Source: Zingiber officinale (taxonomy: Eukaryota > Streptophyta > Magnoliopsida > Zingiberales > Zingiberaceae). Taken from it: a DNA stretch of 64,000 bases. Under the pieces are notes generated by a model. It did no database searches, was not told the origin of the DNA, and saw only the letters and a program-made list of their open reading frames with translations. Position numbers and translations under genes: made by a program. Positions 511 to 63,652 of the stretch are shown in pieces (position 1 is the first letter of the stretch; every line of letters begins with the position of its first letter). The DNA is taken from contig NC_055996.1 of NCBI RefSeq assembly GCF_018446385.1, positions 18,525,317 through 18,589,316 of the forward strand, written 5' to 3'.

Positions 511-1503
511 TGTAGGACCGTTAGATTCGATAGAGGGGGGTGAATATCGATTCGAAAAAGACGAGTATAAACGCAGCGGAAAAGATAAAGTAGACACAGA
601 TATTTTTACTTCGTTCGGAGCCTGTGACGACTCCTACTCGAAGGCCCGTGGTCCTTGACCACTTTCGTTGGGCAATCACTAGCAAGTCAAAATATGATTA
701 CAGAAAAAGTACAGGAGATGCTAGTAATAATAAAGCAATACCGACAAAGAGAAAATTAAGCAAAAACCGGAAGAGCACTTTTGTCGGAGCGTTGTTGACG
801 TTGCACTTGAACGTCGAGCAGCAAGATCAGCAGAAGAGTTCTCAGTCAAAGTTAATTCTGAAGCTCCTGTCTGGGGCTTCTTTTATATGCTGTTCCGGGC
901 GCCTGGATCCCTTCCGGGCGCCCGGACCACCTTGTTCCAGAAAGACTCCTTTTTCCTGCAAAACAAGGTTAGTCCGAGGCAAATATATATCCTGTTAAAC
1001 AAATGGTTAGCACAGTTAAAGTTCAACAGATAGATAAAGAGAGTATGACTTAGATTCCGTCTTTCCGAGACCGGAATCTAGTCACGATCTCGACTTAGAC
1101 ATCCGAAATGGATCTAAGCCGAATCGACGCCTAATGTCCCCTTCCCGGGAACGCGTCCTCACAGTCACTCCCCTCCAGTGACTTACCTCACTTACCTGCC
1201 AGACGTCCGGTCAGTCCGTCGACCCGTCTGGACTTCTCGCCAAACGTCCGGTCAGCCCGTCGACCCGCTTGGACTTCTCGCCAGCTATCCGGTCAGCCCG
1301 TCGACCTAGCTGGACTTCTTGCCAAGCGTCCGGTCAGCCCGTCGACCCGCTTGGACTTCTCGCCAGCTACCCGGTCAGCCCGTCGACCTAGCTGGACTTT
1401 TCCTGCACACTTGATCAAAGTGTCAGACAACAACACAACTAACTTAACCTATTTGTCATTCATCAAAACCTGGGTTAGACCGTTAGTGCTACCCGCACCA
1501 ACA
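511..1503 (-). repeat. 3' LTR of element A
   Basis: 993 bp, TG...CA ends on the minus strand. Nearly identical to 10197-11245 but lacks about 60 bases present there (around 10613-10675), so the two LTRs differ by one indel plus point changes. It holds a five-unit hairpin array (see 1199-1395). Confidence 0.93.
1199..1395 (-). repeat. Five-unit covarying hairpin array in element A 3' LTR
   Basis: Five ~41-bp units. On the plus strand the outer arms are CCAGACG/CGTCTGG (1199-1205, 1225-1231), CCAAACG/CGCTTGG (1240-1246, 1266-1272), CCAGCTA/TAGCTGG (1281-1287, 1307-1313), CCAAGCG/CGCTTGG (1322-1328, 1348-1354) and CCAGCTA/TAGCTGG (1363-1369, 1389-1395). On the sense (minus) strand each unit reads 7-base arm, GGTC, 8-base loop, GACC, GGA bulge, 7-base arm. 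Four of five outer stems pair perfectly although their sequence differs; the second has one G-to-A change that the other LTR lacks. Confidence 0.9.
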
Positions 1504-1520
1504 ATCTCTCCCTTTTTGAT
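1504..1520 (-). promoter_or_regulatory. Polypurine tract of element A
   Basis: On the minus strand a purine run (AAAAAGGGAGAGAT) ends immediately at the TGTTGG start of the 3' LTR. This is the usual position of the plus-strand DNA primer in LTR elements. Confidence 0.8.
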
Positions 1521-2732
1521 GGAATGACAACCTGGTTAAGTTAGTGAAAGCATATGTACGAAACAACATGCATTTGTGTGGTTTTAAAGTTAGTTTGTGT
1601 TTTCAAATTGGTTTATGTATGGTTTTAAAGTTAGTTTGTGTTTTCAAATTGGTTTAGCTAACTTAACCACCTAACCCTCCTCCCCCTTTGGCATTCATCA
1701 AAAAAAACAAGGGAAACAATCATAGTGTAGAGTTACTGAAAACAATAACACTTAATGTTAAAAAAAATAACTGAGTTTGGTTCAGAATTCAAGGAAAAAA
1801 GTACAATTTTTAAATCCAAGAAAAGATCAAGTTGACTTGGGGGAGTATAAAGTTTTGAAAACTTGTATAAAGCATTAGCTTTTAGAAAAATTGCTAAGTT
1901 TTAATTTTCAAACATAAGTGTATAAGGTCTAAATTTCAAGATTAAATATTCAAAACAAGTTTCAACTTTGAAACGCTTTTCAAACATAAGTTTTCAAAAC
2001 CAAAATTCCAAGACTAAGTTTGAAAAAATCTATTTTTCAAAACTAATTGAAATTTATTTTACAACACTAAGTTTGTAAAAGATTCAATTTTCAAAATCAA
2101 GGAAAATGAGTTTGAGAAGCTTAGTTTGTAAACTAATTTTTTTTTTTTTTGTAAATTTAACCTTCAAATCAAAATGTCAAAATTAAGTAAAATTAAATTT
2201 TAAGAACTAGATTTAGGACAATTTTCAAAGTAAAGTTAAATTAAATTTAAATCTTTACTTTTAGTTTTCAAAAGAGTTTGGTAAAAGTAAGATTATATTT
2301 TTAGAATGTTTTTGTAAAATTTGTTTTTCAAAAATCAAATTTTCAAAGTTTAAAAGTATTAGATTCAAAACCTTTCAAACTTTCAAATTTTTGTAAAAAA
2401 TTTCACAATTTTAAACAAGTTGTTTTTAAACTTTGATTTTCAAAATTAAGTTTAAAATTCAATTTGGACAACTAAAGTAGTTTTATTTCTCCCCCTGAAT
2501 TTGATACTTAACTTTAACCAGTTGTCTAACCAATTAGGTACTAACTAACTATCAAAAGATAGTAGCTTTCACTTGGTTAGTCAGATTAAGTTAATTATAA
2601 TCAGTCAGTGTTTGACTTGACTGATGAACTTTAATCTGATTAATATCTGAATTGTATTTAACGTCCAGACTTATGCTGATGCACTGAAATAAGCATCTTA
2701 AGTCCAGACAGTTGGCCTATGCATCTCACCCC
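1521..2732. other. AT-rich non-coding interior of element A
   Basis: Low-complexity sequence rich in TTTTCAAA, AAGTTT and similar words. I see no conserved ORF or RNA gene. A pair of near-identical 40-base segments lies at about 1578-1660. Confidence 0.6.
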
Positions 2733-5152
2733 TGTTGGTTGCTACTCGGAAAACCTATAGGTTCCACTGTACAAAAATTTTGTACAAAGGTCTGAACCTT
2801 TTCCTAGCTATCATGTGTTCTTTTAAATTAAATTTTGGATCGCCTGCGGAACTTAACTCGTTTGATCCAAAACTTAATCTATTTGTTCTTTTAGGTTTTG
2901 ACTTGGATCTCCTGCGGAACTTAACACGTTCGACCCAAGTCTCCTTAAGTTATTAATTCCATTAAATATTAATTTCCATAAAAGGTTCCCAGTACTGACG
3001 TGGCGAGGCACATGACCTTCTTGGATATGGGAGCAACCACCACCGACTAGACAAAACCTTTAATAGAAAGCTAATATTTAATTTTCTAAAATAACTTTAG
3101 GTTAACCAAAGAGAACAATCAAATCACAAGGAAAAGAAAGAAACAAAAGAACACAACTTCGAAAAAACATATTCGAAATTCTAGAACGTAAGCCTCTTGT
3201 ATTTGGTATTATTTCCATAAATAACTAGCATGATGCGGAAATAAAATTTACTAGTTATACCTTGTAGAAAAACCTCTTGATCTTCTACCGTATTCCTCTT
3301 CTAACCTCGGACGTTGTGTGGGCAACGATCTTCCGAGATGAGAAACCACCAAGCACCTTCTTCTTCTCCTAGCTAGGTTCGGCCAATCACAAAGAAGCTT
3401 CACCAAGGACGAAGAACAAAACATCAACCAAACTCCAAGGGATACAAGCTTTCTCTCCTTCTTCTTCTTCTTCTCCAAGTAGTATCCGGCCACCACAAGA
3501 ACTCCAAGCAAGAGATAAGTTTCGGCCACCACAAAAGAGGAAGAAAGGTAGAGGATGGCCGGCACCACACCAAGGAAAAGAGGAGGAAAAATAATAGAGG
3601 TTGTTCCCATGAAGGCACCCTCACCTCTTCTTTTATATTCCTTGGCCTAGGCAAATTAGGAAATTTAATTACAAAATTTCCTTAATTCTTTTGCCATGTA
3701 AAGAAAAATTATTTTAATTAAAACAATTTTCTTCTTTTAAATACAATGGCCGCCACTTTAAAAAACAAAACAAGGAGAGTTTTAATTAATTAAAACTTCC
3801 TAATTTGTCTCCAGAAATTTTATAAAAAATTTCTTCAATAATTTTTATCCCTTTTATGATTGGTTTATAAAAAGAAATTTCTATAATTTTAATTTTTCAA
3901 CATGTGAATAATTTATAAAGAAGAGAAATAAAATATCCTTTCTAATCTACAAATAAGGAAAGAGATTTAATCTCTTTCTTTAATCTTTTGTAGAGACTTA
4001 TAAAAGAGATATTTTAATTTTTAATCTCTTCAATAAATTATATCTTTCACATAAGAAAATTTTAAAATTAAAATTCTTTTTAAATTAAATAGGGCCGGCC
4101 ACCTAAGCTTGGGTTCAAGCTAGGGCCGGCCACCCATGAACCAATGGTTTGGCCGGCCCTAGCTTGATCCTCAAGCTAGCTTGGCCGACCCCTATAACAT
4201 GGGTATGAAGGTGGGTATAGGTGGGTATAGTACTCTATAAATAAGAGGCTACGATAGGGACCGAGAGGAGGAATTGGTTTTGGTCTCCCGATAAAATTAA
4301 GCATCCCGTGTTCGCCCCGAACACACAACTTAATTTTATCAATAATAATTCATTCCACTAGAGAACTATTATTGAACTACCGCACCAATCCCAAATTATA
4401 TTTTTGGGCTCCTTCTTATTATGAGCGTGTTAGTCTCCCTATGTTTAAGATATCGAATGTCCACTAATTAAGTGAGTTACTGACAACTCATTTAATTAAT
4501 ATCTAAGTCCAAGAGTAGTACCACTCATCCTTATTATCATGTCGGACTAAGTCCACCTGCAGGGTTTAACATGACAATCTTTATGAGCTCCTCTTGAGGA
4601 CATTATCAACCTAGTATCTCTAGGACACAGTTTCCTTCTATAATCAACAACACACACTATAAGTGATATCATTTCCCAACTTATCGGGCTTATTGATTTA
4701 TCGAACTAAATCTCACCCATTGATAAATTAAAGAAATAAATATCAAATATATGTGCTTGTTATTATATTAGGATTAAGAGTACACACTTCCATAATAACC
4801 GAGGTCTTTGTTTCTTTATAAAGCCAGTATAAAAGAAACGACCTCAAATGGTCATACTCAATACACTCTAAGTGTACTAGTGTAATTATATAGTTAAGAT
4901 AAATTAATACCTAATTACACTACGACCTTCCAATGGTTTGTTCCTTTCCATTATGGTCGTGAGTTACTGTTTATAATTTATAAGGTACTGATAACATGAT
5001 CCTCTGTGTGTGACACCACACACCATGTTATCTACAATATAAATTAATTGAACAACTACATTTATCATAAATGTAGATATTTGACCAATGTGATTCTTAT
5101 TTCTAGATAAATGTTTATACCAAAAGCTAGGCTTTTAGTATACACTCTAACA
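2733..5152 (+). mobile_element. Solo LTR, 2.42 kb, inside element A
   Basis: Begins TGTTGG and ends CTAACA, with a perfect five-base TSD ACCCC (2728-2732 and 5153-5157). A TATA-like CTCTATAAATAAGAG near 4233 followed by unique leader-like sequence suggests a plus-strand promoter. No primer site, polypurine tract or protein domain was found inside, so a solo LTR left by recombination fits best. The short ORFs near 3251-3654 are in low-complexity sequence and look meaningless. The length fits the long LTRs of some Copia (SIRE/Maximus-type) families, but I cannot assign the family. Confidence 0.82.
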
Positions 5153-5157
5153 ACCCC

Positions 5158-5520
5158 TTTCTATGTTTATCAAACACAAGCAAGGTAAACCTAAGGTGTT
5201 GGTGAGATGCTCAAAAACTAGTCCTATGGGTACATGCTTTCTAAGGATGTAAAACTAGTCTAAGGCCAAAACTGTTTTCGAAAGTCTAAAAATGGAAAGT
5301 TTGAAAACAAACAAGTTTAACCTATAAGTTGGTGAAATCAATTTTGAAAGTATTTTTGAAAGATCCTAGTCTATTAAGATAGAACATATTCAGTGTAAGG
5401 TTGAAATGCTACTAGATAAATCCACAATATTTTACAAGTAGTGTAGCTACAGAAGTAGGTCATCACTAAAGCTACTGAGATGATGAAGGGGGTGGTCTAG
5501 ATCCCAAGGATCGAAGAAGT
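5158..5520. other. Non-coding interior of element A
   Basis: Sequence between the solo LTR and the ORF at 5525-6636. It contains AT-rich words like those at 1521-2732, and no recognisable gene. Confidence 0.5.
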
Positions 5521-5524
5521 GCCA

Positions 5525-6636
5525 TCAGCTCCGTGTCGCTCGTAACTCGGCAACCTCTCGCCGTATGTCCCGATGAAAATCAGAGTTCTCCTGCTGGAGA
5601 CTCGCCATAGCTCTCTCTAGTCCGGTCATACGGTCGGCTAGAGTGCGGGGACCGTGTCGTGGTGCTCGAGCTGGGGGTGGTGGTGGAGCCGGTGCGGCTT
5701 CCTCCGGAAATAGTGCGAGCATGAACTCGTCCACCTGTGCTGGTGCTGTGCCCCCCTCCGCCAAGACATAGTCCCGTCATTTCTATCTATCTGGATGCCG
5801 GCTAGGGAAAAGTTCCGAGAGGATATAACATCGAACTCGGTCATATGGGCAACGTCTCCTCTAGTGACATCAATGTGCAACGAGGACATATAGGCTGTCA
5901 GAATGTGACCAAATGGCATATGGACTCGACTGTCAGTCACGAATCCGGCTGAGTAGATGATGGTGGAGAAGATATGTAGGCTGATGTCAATTTCTAACCT
6001 ATGAATCAGGGCATAAAGTAAGAACGAATGGAATGGGCGCATCACAGCGATGTCCCGAGTAGTCAGTGGTAAAATGCAAAGAACTACAACCCTATAAAGA
6101 GCGTAGTCCTGGACTCGAAGTTCTACTGACCTAAACTGTGTCACAGTGGGATCTCTCTCTCCCTCAAAAAAATACGAATGCATCGTATCGAGAGTAATAT
6201 GTGAGTAGGGATCTTCGAACGGTAGATCCCTCGGAGGATAGCACAAAAAGGAGCAAGTAGATGGACGCAACTCTAAAAACTCTTGGATAGTCGTAGGGGA
6301 AAATACGATATCAGTGCCTGCTGCCCTAGTGGTATAGGTGAAATCGTTTACTTTTACTAGGTTATTGCAAAATTCGGCACACAGACTTATGTTTATTGGA
6401 CTGGTACATTCGACAAGGTTCCTTAAATTATAGTGGCCTATAACCTCTAAAGCAGAGGGACATGACCTTAGGAAGAACGATCTATCTATGCAGGTAGTCC
6501 TAATGGCCTTATAAATGGTGGACTCAAATTTAACCCTAAGTTCGTCTGTGGGAAACCTAGGGTCTGTACTAGCATTGGAGGGCCCAGCACCAGTATTTGT
6601 TCGTTTCCTACTGTATATAAATAAAAGAATATTCAA
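5525..6636 (-). pseudogene. Transposon-associated ORF of element A with frameshifted coiled-coil tail
   Basis: An uninterrupted reading of about 290 residues (from 6636) resembles the poorly understood 'putative plant transposon protein' domain that appears beside retroelement sequence in many plant genomes; the key stretch is around KVNDFTYTT and FSPTTIQEFL. Near 5765-5790 the likely frame changes by one base: the tail then reads a Pro-rich segment (APAPPPPPAR) followed by a short coiled coil ending near 5525. Whether the product has any role in the element's life cycle is unknown. It stands where pol would normally be. The call rests on general resemblance, so the function is open. Confidence 0.55.
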
Positions 6637-6659
6637 AAAAATTGAGAAGACAAAAAATA

Positions 6660-7765
6660 CAATTTTAGAGAGGGGAAGAATTTTTTTTTTTTAATGTTTA
6701 AAATTTTGAAAAAAAATTTAAGTTTAAAATTTTGAAATTAATTTAAGTTTTAAAATTAAAATTTTGAAATTAATTTAAGTTTTAAAATTAAAATTTTGAA
6801 GTTAACTTTTTTAAGTTTAAAATTGAATTTAAGTTTTAAAATTAAAATTTTGAAGTTAAAATTTTTTTTTTAAGTTTAAAATTAGATTTTGAAATTAATT
6901 TAAGTTTTAAAAATTAAAATGTTGAAATTAATTTAAGTTTTAACAATTAAAATTTTGAAGTTAAGTTTAAAGTTAAATTTTGAAATTAATTTAAGTTTTA
7001 AAATTAAAATGTTGAAATTAATTTAAGTTTTAACAATTAAAATTTTGAAGTTAAGTTTAAAATTAAATTTTTAAAATTAATTTTTTAAGTTTAAAATTAA
7101 ATTTTGAAATTAATTTAAGTTTTAAAATTAAAATTTTGAAATTAAAAATTTGAAGTTAATTTTTTAAGTTTAAAATTAAATTTTGAAATTAATTTAAGTT
7201 TTAAAATTAAAATATTGAAATTAATTTAAGTTTTAAAAATTAAAATTTTGAAGTTAATTTTTTAAGTTTAAAATTAAATTTTGAAATTAATTTAAGTTTT
7301 AAAATTAAAATTTTGAAGTTAATTTTTTAAGTTTAAAATTAAATTTTAAAATTAATTTTTTAAGTTTAAAATTAAATTTTGAAATTAATTTAAGTTTTAA
7401 AATTAAAATTTTGAAGTTAAATTTTTTTAAGTTTAAAATTAAATTTTGAGATTAATTTAAGTTTTAAAATTAAAATTTTGAAATTAATTAAAAAAATTTG
7501 AAAATAATTTTTTAAGTTTAAAATTAAAATTTTAAAATTAATTTTTAAGTTTAAAATTAAATTTTGAAATTAATTTAAGTTTTAAAAATTAAAATTTTGA
7601 AGTTAATTTTTTAAGTTTAAAATTAAATTTTAAAATTAATTTTTTAAGTTTAAAATTAAATTTTGAGATTAATTTAAGTTTTAAAATTAAAATTTTGAAA
7701 TTAATTAAAAAAATTGAAAATAATTTTTTAAGTTTAAAATTAAAATTTTAAAATTAATTTTTAAG
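6660..7765. repeat. AT-rich tandem array in element A
   Basis: About 1.1 kb of nearly pure A/T built from words such as TTAAGTTTAAAATTAAATTT and TTTTGAAATTAATTTAAG, repeating at roughly 55-65 bases with many small length changes. It has no coding potential and separates the downstream ORF from gag. Confidence 0.9.
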
Positions 7766-8295
7766 CCTTATTCATCTCACCCGATCTATATTATCAATCA
7801 GGGAATCCTATGGTTTTGTGAGATGAAATTGGTTTGATTACATAGTTTTGGTTTAACTAGTGTTAGATTCAGACTTAGCTTTGGTTTCCACAAATAGGCA
7901 TTCTTCGAATAAACTTCTAAGCTTGGTGAGTCACAAGGACATCATTAGAAGTAACCAACCTTTCGAGGTTTTCCGAACAGTCCTATCCACGGAACTTAGT
8001 ACTAAATCTTGGTCTAACTGGTTAGGATTCGTTTAAGGGTAGCTTCGGTCAGTTCCACTTGGCCAAATGCACCAGATCGAAACCATATCTTTCTAGACAT
8101 GCGATGCCCAAGTTTCCCTAACGTACTATCATCCAAAAATTTCACCAATACCATGATTCAAGTTAAACTTGGTCTCTTTTTAACTAATCCTAATTACCCT
8201 GCCGGGTTGGTAAATTTTGGGTTACCCTATCGGGTAAGTTAGTTTTGGAGGTGCCAGCTATTCTGGAGCCTCCCCCTGAATTATTGGCCATTAAT
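7766..8295. other. Non-coding interior of element A between array and gag
   Basis: Base composition returns to normal here. No ORF over 60 codons and no family motif was recognised. The sequence TACCCTGCCGGGTTGG followed by TACCCTATCGGGTAAG near 8196-8240 is a short imperfect repeat. Confidence 0.5.
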
Positions 8296-9973
8296 TTAAG
8301 TTTTGATTTTAGGCTTGTGTCGATTCTTTTTATAGTTATAGTTAACTTGGTGATAATTTTGTTGTTTTTTAAACTGTTTAGATTTTGAATTTGATTTAGG
8401 TTTGTATTTTGTATTTTGGTTTGGTTTATTTGATTTTATATAATGTATTTTTTCTTTAGGTATATAATATTGATTAAGTCCTACTTGCGTGGTCAGACAC
8501 GCTTTCGGAACCCAAGCTAGATTGGTTGACTTGTATTGGGTTATTAATGATTTGAAGGTTTTATTTGAATTCGACTTATATCCTAGTCCGGTTTTATTAT
8601 AACATGCTTTTTGATTATTTAGGATTAAGTCTAAATTTTTTGATCTTGTTGTGAATTTTTCTAACATCTCTTTTAAATTGTTTATTTCATTTTTTAATGA
8701 TAAATTCTCCTCCTCAAGTGTTAGATCTTGAGTTGGATTTGAATTCTTTAATTGTTCCTTGAGGTTTTGATTTTCCTCAAGAAGTGATTTGTTTTCATTT
8801 TCTAATTTAGTTAATTTACTATTTAGACAGGAAATAATTCTAAAAATTTTTTTGTTTAAATTAAAGTATACCTCATTCGGGCCTTCGGAAACGAGTACGG
8901 ACTCGTGGCTTGTTTCGGGTTCAGACCCGTCGTCATCTTCCGACTCGTTATCTGTTTCGGCTTCGCAGTGCGAGGTGGCTTTGATGTTTCTGCTCTTCTT
9001 CCTCCGATTCGTCCGAGGAGTCGTCCCACGTTGCTTTGAGTGCCTTCTTTTTGGTTGGCTTTGGTTTGTCGAACTTTAGTTTTGGACATTCGTTCTTGTA
9101 ATGTCCCTTTTTGTTGCAGCCGTAGCAAGTCACGTTCTTTTGTTCTGAGGGAGACCTGATCTTTTGAAGATCCTTTTTGCTGAAGCTCCTCTTTTTCCTG
9201 GTGAACATTTTTCTTACCAAGTTCACCAAGTGTTCTTCGTCTTCGGAGTCTTGGTCGGAGTCTTCTTCAAGTTCAAGCTTGCCTTTCTTTTCTTTGGAGG
9301 AACCTGCAAATAGTGCTATACCTTTCTCGGCTCCGGCATTAGTTTGTTCGTGTAATTCTAATTCACAAAACAACTCGTCTAATTTTAAGTTAGAAAGATT
9401 CTTAGAAATTTTGTAGGCATCCACTATTGATGCCCACAAACTATTACGTGGAAAAGCGTTTAAAGCGTACCTTATTAGGTCTCTGTTCTCCATTTGGTGG
9501 CCTATTGCATGAAGCCCGTTGAGGATGTCCTTGATCCTCGCGTGTAGTTGATTCGCTGTTTCTCCTTCCTGCATTTTTATATTAAAGATTTTGTTTAGAA
9601 GCAGGTCTCGTTTTGTTACCTTAGCGTCGCTCGTTCCCTCGTGCAGTTCGATCAGCTTGTCCCATAGCTCTTTAGCGTTTTTGTGTGGACCGACTCTGTT
9701 CAGTTCTTCTCTTGTCAATCCACACTGTAGAGTGTTGATCGCTTTATTTTCTGTTGATGCTTTTTTCTTGAGATCTGCTGTCCAGTCTTCAGGATCCACT
9801 AGATTCCCGGCGTTGTCCACTGGAATTTTGTAAGGTTTCGTAATACTCATCCACTGGTCGAAGTCTGTTTTGAGGTAGACCTCCATGCGCTTCTTCCAGT
9901 AAGGGAAGTCGTCCCCGTTGAAGAGTGGAGGTCGCACTGTGCTGAATCCTTCTTGTTGGGACATTCTGTGCAC
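8296..9973 (-). pseudogene. Copia-type Gag with coiled-coil extension (one frameshift)
   Basis: The main ORF (9973-8948, 341 residues) begins with the usual Copia Gag opening (PPLFNGDDFPYWKKRM near residues 15-30), continues through the UBN2/retrotran-gag region and ends with a CCHC zinc knuckle (CYGCNKKGHYKNEC, about residue 283) and an acidic tail. A one-base shift near 8975-8990 moves the reading into a frame that stays open to 8296. That extension has acidic sequence, a leucine-rich coiled coil (about 8600-8830) and a stretch with LAWVPKACL, similar to the segment at the Gag-Pol boundary in Copia elements. No protease or other Pol domain follows. Gag should form the virus-like particle in the cytoplasm. 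Confidence 0.85.
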
Positions 9974-10179
9974 AGGTAAATAACCAAAAAATATCCCAAG
10001 ACTTGGTCTTGGATTAGTAGTGCGGGAAGAAAAAGATAGAAAAAGAAATCTAAATTCGTGTTGAACTAATTTAAATTGATTAGTGAAATATTAAGTTAAC
10101 GAAACACCAGTTTTTAAAATTAATTAAAAAAACAATTCACCCCCTGTCTGATTGGTGGTTGCACCAAATCAGAGCGGTA

Positions 10180-10196
10180 CCTGCTCTGATACCACT
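10180..10196 (-). promoter_or_regulatory. Primer binding site of element A (tRNA-iMet type)
   Basis: The minus strand reads TGGTATCAGAGCAGG two bases after the end of the 5' LTR. TGGTATCAGAGC is the common plant Copia primer site complementary to the 3' end of initiator tRNA-Met. Confidence 0.9.
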
Positions 10197-11245
10197 TGTA
10201 GGACCGTTAGATTCGATAGAGGGGGGGATATCGATTCGAAAAAGACGAGTATAAACGCAGCCGAAAATGATAAAGTAGACACAAATATTTTTACTTCGTT
10301 CGGAGCCTGTGACGACTCCTACTCAAAGGCCCGTGGTCCTTGACCACTTTCGTTGGGCAATCACTAGCAAGTCGAAATATGATTACAGAAAAAGTACAGG
10401 AGATGCTAGTAATAATAAAGCAATACCGACAAAGAGAAAATTAAACAAAAACCGGAAGAGCACTTTTGTCGGAGCGTTGTTGACGTCGCACTTGAACGTC
10501 GAGCAGCAAGATCAGCAGAAGAGTTCTCAGTCAAAGTTGATTCTGAAGCTCCTGTCTGGGGCTTCTTTTATATGCTGTTCCGGGCGCCTGGATCCCTTCC
10601 GGGCGCCTGGAGTGTGACGTAACTGCTCAAATCAAGATGCTCCACGTAGCGACGAGTTGTCTGGATAAAATCCTTGTTCCAGAAAGACTCCTTTTTCCTG
10701 CAAAACAAGGTTAGTCCGAGGCAAATATATATCCTGTAAAACAAATGGTTAGCACAGTTAAAGTTCAACAGATAGATAAAGAGAGTATGACTTAGATTCC
10801 GTCTTTCCGAGACCGGAATCTAGTCACGATCTCGACTTAGACATCCGAAATGGATCTAAGCCGGATCGACGCCTAATGTCCCCTTCCCGGGAACGCGTCC
10901 TCACAGTCACTCCCCTCCAGTGACTTACCTCACTTACCTGCCAGACGTCCGGTCAGCCCGTCGACCCGTCTGGACTTCTCGCCAAGCGTCCGGTCAGCCC
11001 GTCGACCCGCTTGGACTTCTCGCCAGCTATCCGGTCAGCCCGTCGACCTAGCTGGACTTCTTGCCAAGCGTCCGGTCAGCCCGTCGACCCGCTTGGACTT
11101 CTCGCCAGCTATCCAGTCAGCCCGTCGACCTAGCTGGACTTTTCCTGCACACTTGATCAAAGTGTCAGACAACAACACAACTAACTTAACCTATTTGTCA
11201 TTCATCAAAACCTGGGTTAGACCGTTAGTGCTACCCGCACCAACA
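10197..11245 (-). repeat. 5' LTR of element A
   Basis: 1049 bp with TG...CA ends on the minus strand. On that strand a GCATATAAAAG box near 10575 could be the TATA element. It holds the same five-hairpin array as the other LTR (10941-11137) and a 60-base segment missing from the left copy. Confidence 0.93.
10941..11137 (-). repeat. Five-unit covarying hairpin array in element A 5' LTR
   Basis: Outer arms: CCAGACG/CGTCTGG (10941-10947, 10967-10973), CCAAGCG/CGCTTGG (10982-10988, 11008-11014), CCAGCTA/TAGCTGG (11023-11029, 11049-11055), CCAAGCG/CGCTTGG (11064-11070, 11090-11096), CCAGCTA/TAGCTGG (11105-11111, 11131-11137). All five outer stems are perfect 7-base pairs. Confidence 0.92.
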
Positions 11246-11250
11246 GTTAC

Positions 11251-14819: not shown

Positions 14820-15295
14820 TATATGCGCAACGCTGTCCCGTTCGGGGGGTTTATAGTCGCCGGTCCGATTCAAGAGTTTAACGTCGCCGCTCGATTGTCT
14901 TCAAATCGGGGGGTTTATAGTCGCCGGTCTGACTCTAGAGTTTAACGTCGTCGCTCGACGGTCTTCCGACCGGGGGGTTTTATAGTCGCCGGTTTGACTC
15001 TAGAGTTTAACGTCGCCGCTCGACGGTCTTCAAGCCGGGGGGTTTATAGTCGCCGGTCCAACTCTAGAGTTTAACGTCGTAGCTCGACGGTCTTCCGACC
15101 GGGGGGTTTTATAGTCGCCGGTTTGACTCTAGAGTTTAACGTCGCCGCTCGACGGTCTTCAAGCCGGGGGGTTTATAGTCGCCGGTCCGACTCTAGAGTT
15201 TAACGTCGCCGCTCGACGGTCTTCAAGCCGGGGGGTTTATAGTCGCCGGTCCGACTCTAGAGTTTAACGTCGCCGCTCGACGATCTTCAAGTAGG
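14820..15295. repeat. Tandem array (seven ~64-bp units) in element 1
   Basis: Seven copies of a unit with GGGGGGTTTATAGTCGCCGG, then a GACTCTAGAGTTTAACGTCG segment and a CGCTCGACGGTCTTC segment. Copies start near 14844, 14908, 14972, 15037, 15102, 15166 and 15230, so the period is close to 64-65. Units alternate between two subtypes (CTTCAAGCC and CTTCCGACC). It lies between the antisense ORF and integrase, a place where Tat elements often carry tandem repeats. Confidence 0.93.
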
Positions 15296-32321: not shown

Positions 32322-32754
32322 TAATTACTCCTAAATTCAGTATCATTTAATTAGAATCTAATATATTTTCTATCAATTTGATAGCTTCGATCAATAGGAA
32401 ATTGATCGGTAATCGATTGGTTTATCATGAGAGAACAAAGCCCTCATTATTATATTATAGGTACAAAAAATTCAAAATGAAGTATAATTCTTCATAAATT
32501 TAACACCATTTAACTAAATTGGGTATATTTTCTATCCATTTGAACACAACTCTTTTTCCACCAACCAATCAGTTGGGAGTTTTACTAATTGATTGACTTA
32601 GGTTGAATCGATTGGGAGCCTAAGTCAATGGATTGGTATGAGCTTCCAAGGAGTATGTATTAGGAAGTTAAAGAAAAGAAAAGTTTACATACACAAGAAA
32701 AGTTTACATACACGAGAATATATTTGTCCCCTTATGTTATATATATATAAGTGC

Positions 32755-32952
32755 ATGTAAGCGACACTTGAGAATGTAACGAACTCATCATTATAAAAAA
32801 TTAATTTAATTTTTATATCAGATATTAAACTAATAAGAACGGATATTATACTTGATCTTAGCCAAAAGGCCGAAAAAGATATACTTTCTAACGTCACCAA
32901 CCCGAGGTATGTATACTTTGCTCTCGGTGTTGTTAATACTAAGATGTGGGAC
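32755..32952 (-). ncRNA. U2 snRNA-like gene, body shortened
   Basis: U2 pairs with the branch site of introns. On the minus strand the body starts ATATCTTTTTCGGCC near 32882 and continues TTTTGGCTAAGATCAAGTA, TATCCGTTCTTATTAG and AGTTTAATATCTGATAT, close to plant U2 including the branch-site-recognition region. Upstream it keeps a plant USE (TCCCACATCTT, 32951-32941; consensus RTCCCACATCG) and a TATA-like element (AGTATACATA, near 32917). Immediately after TCTGATAT, at the place of the next stem loop (after about nucleotide 65), the sequence jumps to an Sm-site-like AATTAATTTTTTAT. The later stem-loops III and IV are not recognised. It may therefore be a pseudogene or a divergent variant; I give a moderate score. 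Confidence 0.65.
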
Positions 32953-36490: not shown

Positions 36491-37582
36491 AATATAAATA
36501 CTATAACATGTGGTTAATTATGTAGTATTTCAAATATATATAATTTGATTCCCAACTATAACTTATTATAGGATATTTTTTCATGTGTAATGATAAATTT
36601 GGGATGTGGAATTGTAGGGTCATCCATTATAAACACTTTTAAAGGTATTATGATGGCAGATGGAAAATTTTTATAGGATCAGATTGATCATCTCTAACCC
36701 TCTGTTTGAGAGCAGGTGAGGGAAGGGGAGGGAAGGGAAATAAGGTGAAGACATTTTTTTTTGACTTTATGGTTGGGAGGGGGTGAACCAAATAAAGGAA
36801 AGGTAAAGAAGGGTAAGCTTTAACCTTCCTTACCTATGAAATAGAAGATTTGCTTACACCCCAAATTAGGGTGTAAGGAAGGGTAAGAGAAATTAAGAAA
36901 ACTTTTATTTCAATTTTATCCTTGTTCATAATATTAATTCCCAAGTGCTATTTTAGGTTTATTTAATTCCTCTTATTACACCATTGCTTCATCTTCCTCG
37001 TGCCACCGCCCAACTAGGCGACTACACAACTTCTCGCACTCCACAGCATCGGTGTCGCCGCCGGCCCTACGACATATCTATCCAAAGACAGGTAACCCTA
37101 ATCTTTTCTTCTTCTTATACTTCTATTCTCTACTGTGTAGTACCTTTTTCTTTTATGATTCTTCTTCTTATATTTTCACTGATGGTCAATGTTTGATTAT
37201 ATAAGTTTACATTGTTATCATGTCATATAGTCATGTAATTTGCTTACAAATTATTCATACAGAAACTTCAACATGAAAAAGTTTATCAATTTTATTTTGA
37301 TGTTAATGTATCAAATCTAATCCAAAAAGTCAAATTTTAAGAGATTTATATTTATGAAGGTATAATAGTCATGCTTAACTTCAGCAAAGAGCAAAGAGTA
37401 AAGAGGAACGTCAGAAATGTTGGTGCAATATCCCTTAGGTCAAGGTTGACTGAGTTGACCAGGCTTGAGTCTTAGTCATAGTTTCGATGTTTGACAATAC
37501 ATGTAGACACATGGACAATGCAGGTGCAGTTGTTCATATGGGGAGATTCTGATCAGGGACTGATCAGTATGAATGAAGAAGA

Positions 37583-38160
37583 GTCAAGTAGGTCAAAAGT
37601 GACCGGATACTTGACTGGAAAGTCCTAGTGAGTGAAGCTAGGCAGATGGAAAGTCCTAGTGAGTGAAGCTAGGCAGAAGGAAATCCTGGTGAGTGAAGAC
37701 TGGTGAAAGTCCTAGTGAGTGAAGCTAGGCAGATGGAAAGTCCTAGTGAGTGAAGCTAGGCAGAAGGAAATCCTGGTGAGTGAAGCCAGGTGAAAGTCCT
37801 AGTGAGTAAAGCTAGGGAGATGGAAAGTCCTAGTGAGTGAAGCTATGCAGAAGGAAAACTTGGTGAGTGAAGCCAGGTGAAAGTCCTAGTGAGTGAAGCT
37901 AGGCAGAATGGAAGTCCTGGTGAGTGAAGCCAGGCAAGGGAAAATCCAGATGGATCAAGGATAATCGGACATTTGGTGTTGGGAAGTCCAAGTAGGTCAA
38001 GGGAGTGACCGGATACTTGGCACGAAGAGAAAAGTCCAAGTGGGTCAAAGGGATTGACCGGACACTTGGTGGGAAGTCCTAGCAGGTCAAAGGAGTGACC
38101 AGATGTTAGGTATGATGTACCAACAGGTCAAGGTTGACCGGATGGTGGTTTGAGAGGCTT
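37583..38160 (+). repeat. LTR hairpin module in the Harbinger-nested solo LTR
   Basis: Outer arms: CCAAGTA/TACTTGG (37988-37994, 38014-38020), CCAAGTG/CACTTGG (38036-38042, 38063-38069) and CCTAGCA/TGTTAGG (38078-38084, 38104-38110, with G-T pairing). Inner parts read GGTC, loop of 8 or 9, GACC, then GGA (AGA in the third). A related unit with CAAGTA and TACTTG stands at about 37585-37613, before the stem-loop array. The layout equals that of element A. Confidence 0.88.
37618..37940 (+). repeat. Eleven stem-loops with a constant nine-base loop
   Basis: Tandem units of about 23-31 bases each hold a 5-base stem around TGAGTGAAG. About six units pair CCTAG with CTAGG. At least two (near 37771 and 37915) pair CCTGG with CCAGG, so both sides changed together. 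Others show decay: CCTGG with ACTGG near 37685, and loop change TGAGTAAAG near 37803. Confidence 0.9.
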
Positions 38161-38946
38161 GAGACTTAGTTTTGGGTAAAAACCAAGAGCTGGATCGATC
38201 AGTGGATCGATCCAGGCCTTTCCTAGCGAACAGAGAGCCTCTGAATCAATCAGTGGATCGATCCAGAGGTCCCAATCGATCAACCGATCGATTGGGACGC
38301 TGCTGCTTCGCGCGATAAGCGCTGGATCGATCCGTGGATCGATCCAGGCATTTTTCCAGAGCACAGAGGCGCTCTGGATCGATCCGTGAATCGATCCAAA
38401 GCCTCCCCGATCGATTGGGAGTTTTCGAATCGATCGGGATCCGACCGTTGCGTCGTATTTAAGCTGCAGGCGGGCGTCTCCTTCAGCAACTCTTCACCGA
38501 TTCATTTCAGACTTTCACTAGCTTCTCCACAGCTCTTCTCAAGCTCGAGATCGCCAGTTCTTGAAGGCTCTTGGAGGTTCTTCCAAGTCAAGAGGCGGAT
38601 CAAAGTAAGAAGAAGAAACTAGGGTTAGGGGTTTTGCTCTCATTGTAAGCTTGTAAGCTTGTATTTCATTACCTTTCCCTTTCTTCTTGTATTGAGTCTT
38701 GTAGGGCTTCTCCGCCCTTGGTAGTTACCATAAAGGAGAGTTTTATTAGTGGAGAGTATGTGTGTAGGTGTGGATCCTTGGACTAGTCATCTCTTGTGAG
38801 GTGGATACCAAGTAAACCAACCTTGTTAGCGTTGTGTGATTTGTTTCTGTATTTTCCGCTGCACATCTTGAAGAAACAAGCAACGACGAGCATCTAGCAC
38901 GCGACGAGCTATTCACCCCCCCTCTAGCTACTTTTCGGTCCCAACA

Positions 38947-56274: not shown

Positions 56275-57672
56275 TTCTAGGACACGTATGAGCTAGGGGA
56301 GTGACTAGCTCGCTTCGCTTCTTCAAACTTGATGTTGCAGTGGAAAATTTGAAGCGACGACTCCACAATGTTAATACTTGGATTTTACTTGGTATTCACC
56401 TCTTTGAGGTGACTGATCCAAAGGTTCACTCCTCACAATCACAGCTCCATTATGAATACCTCATTCTCGGGAACTATTCGGAGGCGGAAAAGCCTCGTAC
56501 AACCTTGTGTTCAAGGATATAACAAGAAAAGCAAAAGCAAATACAAAGGAAATCGAACACAACTTTACAATGAGGAAATCTTGCTTAGCTTGTTATCTTG
56601 TTGCTTGGAAATATCTTTTGATCGGTTGGAAATGCAGCAACACTTCACTTCTAACTTCTCAAAAACTGCTACAAATAAACTCAACAAAACCCTCTTTTCT
56701 AGGGTTTCTTTTGTGCTGGAAAACTCCTAATCGATTGACCTCATTCCCAATCAATTACCACGTTAGCTTGACCGTTCATAACCAGAACAACTCTTTTTCG
56801 TTCGACCAATTGATTGGTGAGCCATACCAATCGATTGGTTAACCTCTAATCGATTGCCCCAATCGATTTCGAGGCTTTCTGTTCTCTTGCAAAAATGTCT
56901 CCAATCTTGTCTCTAATCAATTAGCCCACTCGATTGGTGAAACTTGAATCGATTGTCTTAATCGATTCAAAGACTTTTTGTTCTCTTGCGAAAAGGCTCC
57001 CAATCGATTGATTGCCTAACCCTAAACCCAGAATTTTGGGTTTAGGATTTATCAATCGATTGGTTCTTAATTCATCCTTTTCAAATTAAATTCGTATCTT
57101 GTCTAGTATCTGATTGTTCTCGACTTACCAGGACTTTATTTGCCCAACATTCAGTCATCCATTACTTCTTGCGACTTCCCCTAGCATCCGGTCAACCTTG
57201 ACCCGCGAGGCTTTTTCACCAAGTGTCCAATTAACCTTTGATCTACTTGGATTTTTCTCTTGTGCCAAGTGTCCGGTCCTCTATGATCCACTTGGATTTA
57301 CCGTCTCGTGCCAAGTGTCTGGTTCTTCGCGACCCACTTGGACTTTTCCCTTGCCTAGCCTCACTAAGACTTCCCTTGCCTAGTTCCCAATTAGGTCTTC
57401 CACTCTCTAGCCCTGCTAGGACTTTCATTGCCTAGTTCCCAACTAGATCTTTCATTGTCTAACCTTGCTAGGACTTCTATTGTCTTTCTTAACCTCCAGT
57501 TAGGACTTTTCGTTGTCTAACCTTCTGTTAGAATTTTCCCTGTCAAATATCCGGTTCTTCCTTGATCTACTTAACTTTTCTCTTACATATTGTTAACATT
57601 TAAACTCAAGCTCAAACCAACTTGAGCTTAATCAAACTGGTCAACCTTGACCTGAGGAGGATTGTACCAACA
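56275..57672 (-). repeat. 3' LTR of element C
   Basis: About 1.4 kb. It carries AATCGATT words (56726-57062) and the LTR hairpin module: CCAAGTG/CACTTGG at 57265-57271/57289-57295 and 57311-57317/57335-57341. Confidence 0.85.
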
Positions 57673-59809: not shown

Positions 59810-60425
59810 TTATCCAAGTCTTGATCTCAAAACTTGGTTTTCAATCCTTAAATCCTCAAACTTAGAATTTCCATGATTTCCTTGAACAATTTTCCTTTTA
59901 GGCACATATCTATATTTCTTAGGATTCTTGTCTAAATCATTTTCTACCTTACTATTCTTAGGTAAGGTTGTTCTAGCATGATATGACTTGTAATTTTCCT
60001 TAGGATTGTCGTGCTTTCTATTTTCATGATAAATAACTCTAAAATGATAACATTTATTTCTAACATGCCTTTTATCTTGAAATAAGGAAATACCATTAAC
60101 TAATGATACCTTAGTTTTGCTCTTACAAGCTCCCCCTTGATTTGAGCTTCTTCCTTTGCTTTTAATGTCCTTTTTGATTGTACAAGAAGCACACAATGTG
60201 CTCTTTAGCCTTTCATATCAAGGAACTACCTTCTCTTGCTCTCTCCTTTGTCTTAGGTGCCACCTTAGTTTTCTTCCTGACTAATTTTGGACATTTGCTC
60301 CTGTAGTGTCCATTCTCCCTACACTCAAAGCATATTATATAATTTTTATTTTTAACAATCGAAATTGTTATACATTCTTTACTTGTAGGGGTGACACATG
60401 ATTCTTCTGTTGGTGCAGGTTGCAC
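59810..60425 (-). pseudogene. Gag fragment with zinc knuckle (element C)
   Basis: On the minus strand 60425-60213 reads CFECRENGHYRSKCPK, a CCHC zinc knuckle like that of Copia Gag. A solo LTR begins at 60408 and cuts the upstream part. The reading 60196-59810 continues as a basic Gag-like tail in another frame. Confidence 0.7.
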
Positions 60426-61466
60426 TAATGGTCTAACTCAGGTTTTGATGAATACCAAAGTAAGTTAAGTTAGGTTTAATATGATCTAACAATTTAACTA
60501 AGTGTGCAGGAGAAGTCCAGATGGGTCGACGGGATGACCGGATATCTGACAAGAAATCCAACTAGGTCGACGGGCCGACCGGATAGCTGGTACGAAGTCC
60601 AGATAGGTCGAGGAGCTGATCGGATTTCTGACACGAAGTCCAGTTTGGTCAACGGGCTGACTGAATAGCTGGCATGAAGTCTAGACAGGTCGATGGGCTG
60701 ACCGGATGTCCGACAAAGCCGTAAGTTAAGGTAAGCCACTGAAGGAGAGTGACTTGGTGAGGACGCGTTCTCTGTTTGAGAGAACAGTAAACGTCGATCC
60801 AACTTAGATCCATTTGGAAAATCTAAGTTGAGATCTTGACTAGATTCTGGTCTCGAGGAGACAGAATCTAATTACTACTTTTGACTATAATTGTGCTAAC
60901 ACTTGTTTTGCAGGGTAATATAAGTTTTATTGTTTCAGACTAACTTTATTTTGCAGGAAATAAAGGCAGCTGAAAAGTTGGTCCGGGCGCCCGGAATGTC
61001 AAAAGTTATCTTGTCGCTAGCTTGGAGCGCGTTCATTGGATAAGTTGACGTCACGATCCAGGCACCCGGAAGGGATCCAGGCGCCTGGAACTGTCTATAT
61101 AAGTAGTCTTCCACCAGGAGCAAAGAACAACAACTTTCTTCCAATTGCCTTCTTGCGCCTACTCCAAAGACGCTCCTACGACGCTAAAAAGCTTATCCGA
61201 CAACCTGAGACTATGATTTTTATTTCCCTTGTTGTCGGTAATTTTATATTATAGTTCTTGTACTTATCGTGTAACCCTTTTTGTGAACTATTAGTGGATT
61301 GCCCAACGAAAGCACTTGGAGTAGGAGTCGACAAAGGTTCCGAACCAAGTAAAACTTGGTTTGTTAGCGTTATTCTTATTTTTCTCTTCTGCTGGGTACT
61401 CGATTTAATTATCAATTTTCGACGATTGCTATTCACCTCCTCTCTAGCGTTCTTTCCGATCCAACA
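60408..61466 (+). mobile_element. Solo LTR related to element A, inside element C
   Basis: 1059 bp with a perfect TSD TCTTC (60403-60407 and 61467-61471). It begins TGTTGGTGCAGGTTGCACTA, close to the minus-strand start of element A LTRs, and ends CCGATCCAACA. It keeps five decayed hairpin units at 60517-60720 and a CCAGGCGCCTGG-like region near 61076-61089. Confidence 0.93.
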
Positions 61467-61567
61467 TCTTCTTCATTGACTCTGGATATAGAGACTTCTT
61501 ATTTCGGTGTCAATAAGCTCTCCCTCTCAATCTTGAGGTGGATGCTTCCTTAATTTTTTCCTCGGAC

Positions 61568-62122: not shown

Positions 62123-63652
62123 TGTTAGGACACGTATAATCTAGAGAGGGGGTGAATAGCTCGCTTCACTTCTTCAAACTTGATGTTGCAATGGAAAACT
62201 TGAAGCGACGACTCCACAATGCGAACAATTAGATTTTAGTTGATATCCATCTCTTGAAGTGACTAATCTAAGGGTTCACTCTTCACACTCACAACTCCAC
62301 TATGAATGCCTCCTTGGAAATTTTTCGGAGGCGGGAAGTCTTGTACAACCTCGTGTACAAATGATACAACAATAAAAGCAAAAGCAAAAGCAAATACAAA
62401 GGAAATTGAGCATGACTTTACAATGATGAAATCTTGCTTAGCTTGCTATCTTATTGCTTGGAAATGCTTCATGATCGGTTGGAAGCAACACTTCGCTTCT
62501 AACTTCTCTAGAACTGCTACAAAAAAACTCCACGAAGCCCCCTTTTCTAGAGTTTCTTTAAGGCAGCAAAACACCTCTTAATCGATTGACCTTATGCCTA
62601 ATTGATTGTCACGTCAGCTCGATCGTTCAAAACTTGCAGAACGACTCTTTTTTCGTCTAACCAACGATTGGTGAGTCGTACCAATCGGTTGGTTAGCCTC
62701 TGATCGATTGCCCCAATCGATTTTGAGGCTTTGTTCTCTCACAAAAATGCCTCCAATCGATTAGCCTAAGTGATTGGTAAAGCTTGAATCAATTGCCTTA
62801 ATCGATTCCAAGACTTTCTATTCTCTTGCAAAAAGCCTCCAATCGATTGGTGAATCTTAAATCAATTGCCTCAATCGATTCCAAGACTTTCTGTTCTCTC
62901 GTGAAAATGTTCTCAATCGATTGCCCAACTCTAAACCCGGAATTTTGTGTTTAGGGTTTACCAATTGATTGGTTCCTTTCACCAATCGATTGATAACCCT
63001 GAATTCAGCTTTTCTAAGCTGAATTCTTATCTTGCATGGTATTCAGTTGATCTCAACCTACCAGGACTTCCTTTGTCCAACATTCAGTCATTTGTGATCT
63101 GTTAGGACATCCCATTTCCTAGCATACGATCAACCTTGACCTGTAGGGCTTTTTCACCAAGTGTCCGATCAACCTTTGATCCACTTGGATTTTCCTCTTG
63201 TGCCAAGTGTCCGGTCCTCCATAACCCACTTGAATTTTACCATCTCGTGCCAAGTGTCCGATCCTCCATGATCCACTTGGACTTTTCTTTTGCCTAGCCT
63301 TGCTAGGACTTCCATTGACTAGTTCCTAACTAGGTCACCTACTGCCTAGCCCCGTTAGGACTTTCATTGTCTAGTTCTCAATTAGGTCTTCCATTGCTTA
63401 GCCCCACTAGGACTTTCATTGTCTAGTTCCCAACTAGGTCTTCCACTGCTTAGCTCCGCTAGGACTTCCATTGCGTTGCCTAACCTTCAGTTAGGGGTTT
63501 CTGTTGCCTAACCTTCAGTTATGAATTTCCTAGTCAACTATCCGGTCCTCTCTTGACCTACTTGACTTTTCTCTTATATATTGTTAAACATCGAAACTCA
63601 AGCTCGAACCAACCAACTGGTCAACCTTGATCCGAAGACAATTGCACCAACA
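62123..63652 (-). repeat. 5' LTR of element C
   Basis: 1530 bp. CAATCGATT words fill 62577-62995. Hairpin modules lie at 63157-63188 and 63250-63280 (arms CCAAGTG/CACTTGG), plus a decayed one at 63203-63233. Confidence 0.88.

Follow-up and report, generated by a model that had tools for sequence, protein, structure and literature searches.

Palindromic motifs in the long terminal repeats (LTRs) of Sireviruses are already known. The parts of Bousios et al. (2010; PMC2829016) drawn on here describe palindromic RM boxes that lie upstream of the TATA box and have a CGG-CCG core, among them CGGTC/GACCG types (Osr8, Osr10 and Vitis) and, in Tnd-1, ACAATCGATTGT with an ATCGAT core, suggest a regulatory role for these boxes, and report that Sireviruses have additional polypurine octamers as well as an inverted repeat at the LTR junction. 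In the sections of Martin et al. (2023; PMC10760457) used here, structured regions are concentrated in maize Copia LTRs and, as described there from Bousios et al. (2016), maize Sirevirus palindrome clusters form hairpins and attract small RNAs. We have analysed a 64,000-nt stretch of Zingiber officinale DNA (NC_055996.1, positions 18,525,317 to 18,589,316; hereafter the window) in which a Sirevirus-like Copia retrotransposon, element A (511-11245, minus strand), carries in each LTR an array of five bulged hairpins, the outer arms of which differ between units and are matched by their partners. U3 palindromes of Sirevirus type being known, what is new in this observation is the bulged unit and its covarying arms, which are specific to each unit. 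The hairpin array is confirmed as a real feature, within the limits of one window and few independent arm forms. None of the literature matches listed concerns covarying stems in Sirevirus palindromes, a comparison of titles and the starts of abstracts with most subscription journals outside the search, and novelty is not proven.

In the 3' LTR of element A (511..1503, minus) the array lies at 1199..1395 on the minus strand, with hairpins at 1199-1231, 1240-1272, 1281-1313, 1322-1354 and 1363-1395. These are the five units as laid out in an earlier note made from the sequence alone, and five counterparts are present at 10941..11137 (minus) in the 5' LTR (10197..11245, minus), the array spanning sense positions 109-305 of the LTR. 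Read on the sense strand, the 41-bp unit is AAGT-CCAN4-GGTC-loop(8)-GACC-GGA-N4'TGG. The three arm forms previously listed, AGACG, AAGCG and AGCTA, were all recovered. Outer stems are perfectly Watson-Crick paired in nine of ten cases, and the tenth (1240-1272), formerly counted as broken, pairs G with U when read as sense. The 5' LTR has no imperfect outer stem among its five, and one of its inner stems includes a G·U. The inner GGTC/GACC, reported as constant, is nearly so within element A (a single GACT, in the 5' LTR) but also occurs as GATC/GATC elsewhere. Units follow one another in tandem, with a higher-order period of 82 bp, and the same arm form can be found more than once in an array. 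The pairing is real, but the five units in two LTRs offered earlier as evidence amount to three independent arm forms, not ten stems, as the LTRs are mutual copies and two forms occur twice per array. No array unit was found in the internal region of element A at up to 3 mismatches. The array is assigned to the unique 3' (U3) region because a TATA-box-like CATATAAAAG (880..889, minus) comes after it on the sense strand, at sense position 615 of the 3' LTR and 672 of the 5' LTR. A transcript of the element that begins in the repeat (R) region would carry U3 only at its 3' end.

Element A resembles the elements with RM boxes in having palindromic repeats in U3 upstream of its TATA-like box, RM boxes being, according to PMC2829016, palindromic motifs that recur in the LTR's upper half and precede the TATA box, and GGTC/GACC and ATCGAT both occur in the present LTRs. 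With respect to the CGG-CCG core, element A has GGTC/GACC with an adjacent CCGG, the bulge replacing the outer C-G of CGGTC/GACCG. The RM boxes of Table 3 in that paper are 10-20 bp long, with a short spacer or none and one consensus per element, whereas the present unit is a 33-nt bulged hairpin (loop of 8 in A) with unit-specific arms and matching partners. Copy number and position also differ, RM boxes numbering at least eight per element, linker included, and most starting 200-400 bp after the junction, whereas the 3' LTR of element A has five, the first at about position 107; in two LTRs described below, solo LTR C likewise has five, and LTR F has more hairpins, of two kinds. The maize Sirevirus clusters described in PMC10760457 are similar in that palindromes with strong predicted structure are clustered in LTRs, but their motif, CACCGGACNNNGTCCGGTG, is given as one consensus, and the strings "compensatory" and "covari" are absent from the main text of that paper. 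Sireviruses also have an inverted repeat around the polypurine tract, as treated in the relevant parts of PMC2829016 and PMC3601003; element A has one, with its right arm just before the array in the sense direction, but that repeat forms one long stem joining the internal region to U3, whereas the array is wholly within U3. The tandem U3 repeats of Tnt1 and retroviruses are also located upstream of the promoter, and the section of PMC3601003 devoted to them does not describe covarying stems. No Rfam family matched the array at gathering score, the only such match in the whole window being a U2 small nuclear RNA (32723-32882, minus, 71.2 bits).

Further units were detected by an arm-blind scan of both strands of the window, which used the fixed letters only, left the five variable arm letters free and allowed up to 3 mismatches. 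This yielded 25 units, spread over six LTR copies, and each is Watson-Crick paired at three or more of the five variable arm positions. Element A accounts for ten, solo LTR C for five, F for four, and D and E together for the other six. Solo LTR C (60408..61466, plus), flanked by the target-site duplication TCTTC at 60403-60407 and 61467-61471, contains five decayed units at 60517..60713 (plus); its arm letters differ from those of A at all five homologous units, at least one outer pair is broken in every unit, and it is presumably an old dead copy. In LTR F, which starts at 37418, the unit region (37584..38149, plus) is composed of one bulged unit, a block of short hairpins and five further bulged units, with six different arms. 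The short hairpins of this block (37618-37940, plus) have 5-bp arms, CCTAG/CTAGG and CCTGG/CCAGG, around TGAGTGAAG; these arms, too, change together in most copies. Decayed bulged units number six in LTR D (57102..57345, minus) and seven, six together and one apart, in LTR E (63035..63569, minus). Neighbouring units with an identical arm occur in D and E, and in neither A nor C. Relaxing the scan to 5 mismatches gave 55 matches, from which 34 in-register units (30 distinct when loops are ignored) were used; the remainder, left aside, comprised 13 outside arrays, which look like chance matches, 6 in blocks of short hairpins (in F, D and E) and 2 that read a place already counted. Pattern scans of other contigs with the four inner arm letters open (one viral locus and 11 genome loci) gave 12 single matches, all taken as chance because none has complementary arms, and the translated array used as a protein query gave 83 candidates, none at an E-value of 0.01.

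Pairing of the arms greatly exceeds that obtained when partners are shuffled. Of the 125 arm cells in the 25 units of the arm-blind scan, 114 are Watson-Crick, 5 G·T and 2 A·C, as against a shuffle mean of 64.1 (standard deviation, sd, 6.2; largest 88), the observed value being reached in none of 20,000 shuffles. The 14 distinct arm pairs give 59 of 70 versus 32.4 (again 0/20,000). When shuffling is confined to each element, every distinct arm pair being entered once and a G·U variant of element A excluded, the values are 60 of 70 versus 42.6, reached once in 20,000. Taken by group, F (4 units, 0.04), C (5 units, 0.04) and D/E (6 units, 0.16) are weak alone, and element A by itself is strong in the arm-blind shuffles but includes duplicates. 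A separate count found 91.8% of cells paired versus 78.5% after shuffling (0/500), with 17-39% in slid structures, and a covariation score of 0.517 versus 0.256 (0/500), shuffles that relatedness alone can beat; a weaker measure, pairs changed on both sides, gave 9 versus 6.9 and was reached by 30 of 500 shuffles. A tree-based null of our own design, which keeps the tree, a poor one built on 29 columns, and redistributes the substitutions, gave 199 Watson-Crick stem cells (sd 17.8, largest 251 in 500 simulations) compared with 284 of 330 in the 34 units. The five highest covariation scores among the 406 column pairs of these units are those of arm positions 3-7, and both sides of inner pair 2 change as well (21 GC, 4 AU, 3 GU and 2 other). 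Covariation beyond shared ancestry is thus supported for the units of this window, by shuffles and by the tree-based null, with one arm pair significant singly.

These results bear on a reading in which a small number of old palindromic units have been redistributed by recombination and unequal crossing-over, the matching being inherited with no current constraint. Tandem arrays, the 82-bp period and the recurrence of identical arm forms within arrays are all in keeping with such a history, which explains the spread of forms but not the origin of the six different perfectly paired 7-mer arm forms present among the 34 units. As the null that retains ancestry, on its tree of 29 columns, also falls short of the observed pairing, we consider this history very unlikely.

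The explanation we favour, with modest confidence, is that the array is the palindrome-rich part of a Sirevirus-like U3, built of bulged hairpins that would act as a folded single strand and serve as docking sites. Each unit would be subject to two constraints, the core being kept as sequence and the outer stem as pairing. The core, consisting of the AAGTCC linker, the GGTC/GACC inner stem and the one-sided GGA bulge, is near-fixed, as a binding protein would require, while the outer seven-pair stem may be held mainly as pairing, its letters drifting in matched steps. The folded strand would most likely be genomic RNA, in the U3 portion at its 3' end, or complementary DNA (cDNA) during reverse transcription, and several copies of the docking site would adjoin the polypurine-tract stem-loop. 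Selection on pairing, which the earlier note had put forward, is the best reading of covariation beyond ancestry and ranks ahead of mutational copying, though it is not proved. What the sequence shows directly is how the array is built, where it lies and that its arms covary; the selection, the docking role and the molecule are inferred.

Mutational copying would occur if a DNA polymerase or reverse transcriptase switched template within the hairpin and used one arm as the template for the other, which would need no selection on the fold. The palindrome-making copy process raised earlier as an alternative therefore has a published mechanism: the parts of PMC8794818 used here propose that template switching gives rise to hairpins and preserves them, compensatory changes of several bases included, and the authors regard the support for short stems as circumstantial. 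The six perfect arm forms are connected by five steps, two of which change two bases, and the LTRs are rich in palindromes (symmetric flanks of ATCGAT and GGCGCC, and an excess of helices in six U3s), both observations being consistent with template switching. However, this process should lengthen stems and erase a one-sided bulge, whereas the stem edge is sharp, the next position out being unpaired in 32 of 34 units so that stems end at 7 bp, and the 3-nt bulge stays, a constancy that is partly a product of the search. The sharp 7-bp edge makes a palindrome-making copy process less probable. Template switching also leaves the fixed core beside varying arms unexplained, and in solo LTR C none of the five units has retained all its pairs. 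On this evidence we regard template switching as an unlikely source of the matched arms.

Several results weigh against a folded single strand held by selection. Every unit comes from one 64-kb window, the nine units of F, D and E beyond the original 25 were picked by their place in an array and not arm-blind, and the GGA bulge belonged to the search motif, so that its constancy arises partly by construction. Singly, only one arm pair has an E-value below 0.05 (0.006), the others having 0.18, 0.43, 1.2 and 2.3, while arm pair 1 has 9.2 and the inner pairs have at least 18. Computed in LTR stretches of about 400-880 nt, mean outer-stem probability in the 34 units is lower on the sense than on the antisense strand, 0.26 versus 0.40 as RNA and 0.36 versus 0.49 as DNA, and the sense RNA of the array favours alternative pairings. 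Transition mismatches show no strand bias, with 23 G·T versus 16 A·C in U3 helices (p = 0.34) and 19 G·T versus 17 A·C in unit stems. In favour of folding, A and C (74% identical) have a common structure over the 170 nt that follow the array (alifold -48.95 versus -20.3 for 200 column shuffles, sd 3.5, lowest -30.3). In this structure 9 of 45 pairs differ and none is broken, but it was selected on those two sequences, which limits the weight of the zero, and its three double changes were reached by 78 of 200 column shuffles. As candidates for compensatory change outside the array the three double changes were therefore rejected, being no more than column shuffles give, and only the shared fold is supported.

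The lack of strand bias among mismatches is in line with a further alternative, that the units are duplex-DNA dyad sites for U3 transcription factors, like the enhancer repeats of retroviruses and Tnt1, with arms that vary by factor or half-site. Perfect loopless palindromes are also present in these LTRs, and the sections of PMC2829016 cited above report, for boxes suggested to be regulatory, matches to stress-related factor sites. Yet a factor site should keep its letters, whereas here the arm letters vary and the symmetry stays. With arms 19 nt apart in A and a one-sided bulge, the unit would not be symmetric round one axis, and we judge duplex sites improbable.

With regard to the molecule in which hairpins would form, the earlier suggestion of a folded RNA, a cruciform or a protein site has been narrowed little, as nothing singles out the sense RNA, array stems being likelier on the antisense strand and mismatches unbiased. 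Outer-stem probability exceeds 0.5 in 12 antisense versus 8 sense units as RNA, and in 18 versus 10 as DNA, of 34; LTR E is the exception, the two strands being about equal with sense slightly ahead. From the letters of the unit, the antisense lean is likely to reflect the ability of GTCC in the sense linker to pair with GGA and the next base. Sense U3 folds have energies of -211.0 kcal/mol in A (z -3.7) and -199.6 in C (z -4.5), and antisense folds -177.6 and -174.6 kcal/mol, z -6.9 each, relative to 60 shuffles. For the stretch that follows the array, the alifold energies of A and C together are -48.95 in the sense and -46.35 in the antisense direction. In element A alone the ratio of G·T to A·C is 6:1, derived from two copies of one LTR that are not independent. 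Position and precedent give no more than a lean towards sense RNA, and the array folds lean the opposite way.

Elsewhere in U3, further hairpins are formed by CGGCTTAGA/TCTAAGTCG (1090..1122, minus), which reads CAACTTAGA/TCTAAGTTG in solo LTR C, and by TAGATTCCG/CGGAATCTA (1051..1080, minus), which reads TAGATTCTG/CAGAATCTA in the same LTR. Helices in all six U3 stretches exceed any of 20 mononucleotide shuffles each, with, for example, 11 versus a mean of 2.05 in the 5' LTR of A and 16 versus 4.75 in E. The array adjoins a long stem at the 3' LTR junction of A that contains the polypurine tract, the inverted repeat having its left arm at 1514..1545 and its right arm, within U3, at 1438..1468 (both minus). 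This junction folds more stably in the sense than in the antisense direction (-61.3 versus -51.1 kcal/mol in A and -61.3 versus -47.0 in D). Over the whole window the first flanking base is symmetric at a frequency of 0.69 around ATCGAT (42 sites), 0.40 around GGCGCC (15 sites) and 0.00-0.32 around ten other 6-bp palindromes, and the fourth flank of ATCGAT sites shows no symmetry excess (0.21). ATCGAT-core palindromes, their flanks often symmetric and changing, are found in LTRs F, D and E at 38190-38440 (plus), 56828-57060 and 62660-62990. GGCGCC palindromes lie close to the TATA-like box in A and also occur in C (898-928, 10583-10613 and 60986-61085), as CCGGGCGCCCGG at one place and CCAGGCGCCTGG at another.

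The limits of element A were set by LTR alignment and by its ends, the 3' LTR having the sense start TGTTGGTGCGG and the sense end CCTACA, and the element is flanked by a 5-bp target-site duplication, GTTAC, at 506-510 and 11246-11250. Inward of the 5' LTR in the sense direction is TGGTATCAGAGC, which we take to be a primer site of tRNA-Met type. The terminal polypurine tract, AGGGAGAG (1506..1513, minus), precedes an AT/TG boundary at the 3' LTR, and at this expected place agrees with the Sirevirus octamer AGGGGGAG in 7 of 8 letters. An extra copy of the octamer lies in the linker at 1680..1687 (minus), 184 bp from the 3' LTR, followed by others at 2489-2496 (993 bp) and, as a third, at 6774 bp. 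Both the extra octamers near the 3' LTR and the inverted repeat flanking the polypurine tract/3' LTR junction, features reported for Sireviruses in the parts of PMC2829016 used here, are thus present in element A.

The gag frame of element A (PF14223; 8948..10090, minus) has a single CCHC motif at 9086-9127, and downstream of it the only sign of a coiled coil is one PF17078 match, below cut-off, in the next frame. It has 64 related proteins, the best named plant entries being from Curcuma longa and one from Zingiber officinale. Two entries filed under Salmonella enterica (P0001 and P0006, on 1.1- and 1.3-kb contigs) are gag fragments 68% and 60% identical to element A and are probably plant contaminants of those assemblies. 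The interior, 1504-10196, is overlapped by 19 stop-to-stop frames of 70 amino acids or more, none longer than 380 amino acids, and no pol domain was found in the three longest, the three of the 19 that were scanned. A PF20167 frame at 5638-6690 (minus) scores 44 bits, just under the cut-off of 45. As no frame exceeds 380 amino acids, element A, despite its gag and PF20167 frames, looks non-autonomous or badly decayed. Its interior also contains a long AT-rich tandem array (6690-7757) with periods of about 33, 65 and 98, and another tandem array, of seven 64-bp units with about 90% matches, is found outside the element at 14843-15291.

A broader proposal, which we advance tentatively and consider doubtful as it stands, is that some Sireviruses possess a U3 array of addressed hairpins, in which the core and bulge would be read by a Gag-like or host protein and the free stems would differ between neighbours so that units self-fold. 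The array would then constitute a multivalent packaging, dimerisation or reverse-transcription element in the 3' end of the genomic RNA or in the cDNA, and the known boxes would be hairpins first and DNA sites second. Sirevirus LTR palindromes have been in print since 2010 (PMC2829016), and matched stem changes within one LTR separate sequence from folding. If the pattern holds across genomes, it would represent a structured U3 element in an abundant plant retrotransposon genus and would suggest why these elements retain structures to which small RNAs may be drawn.
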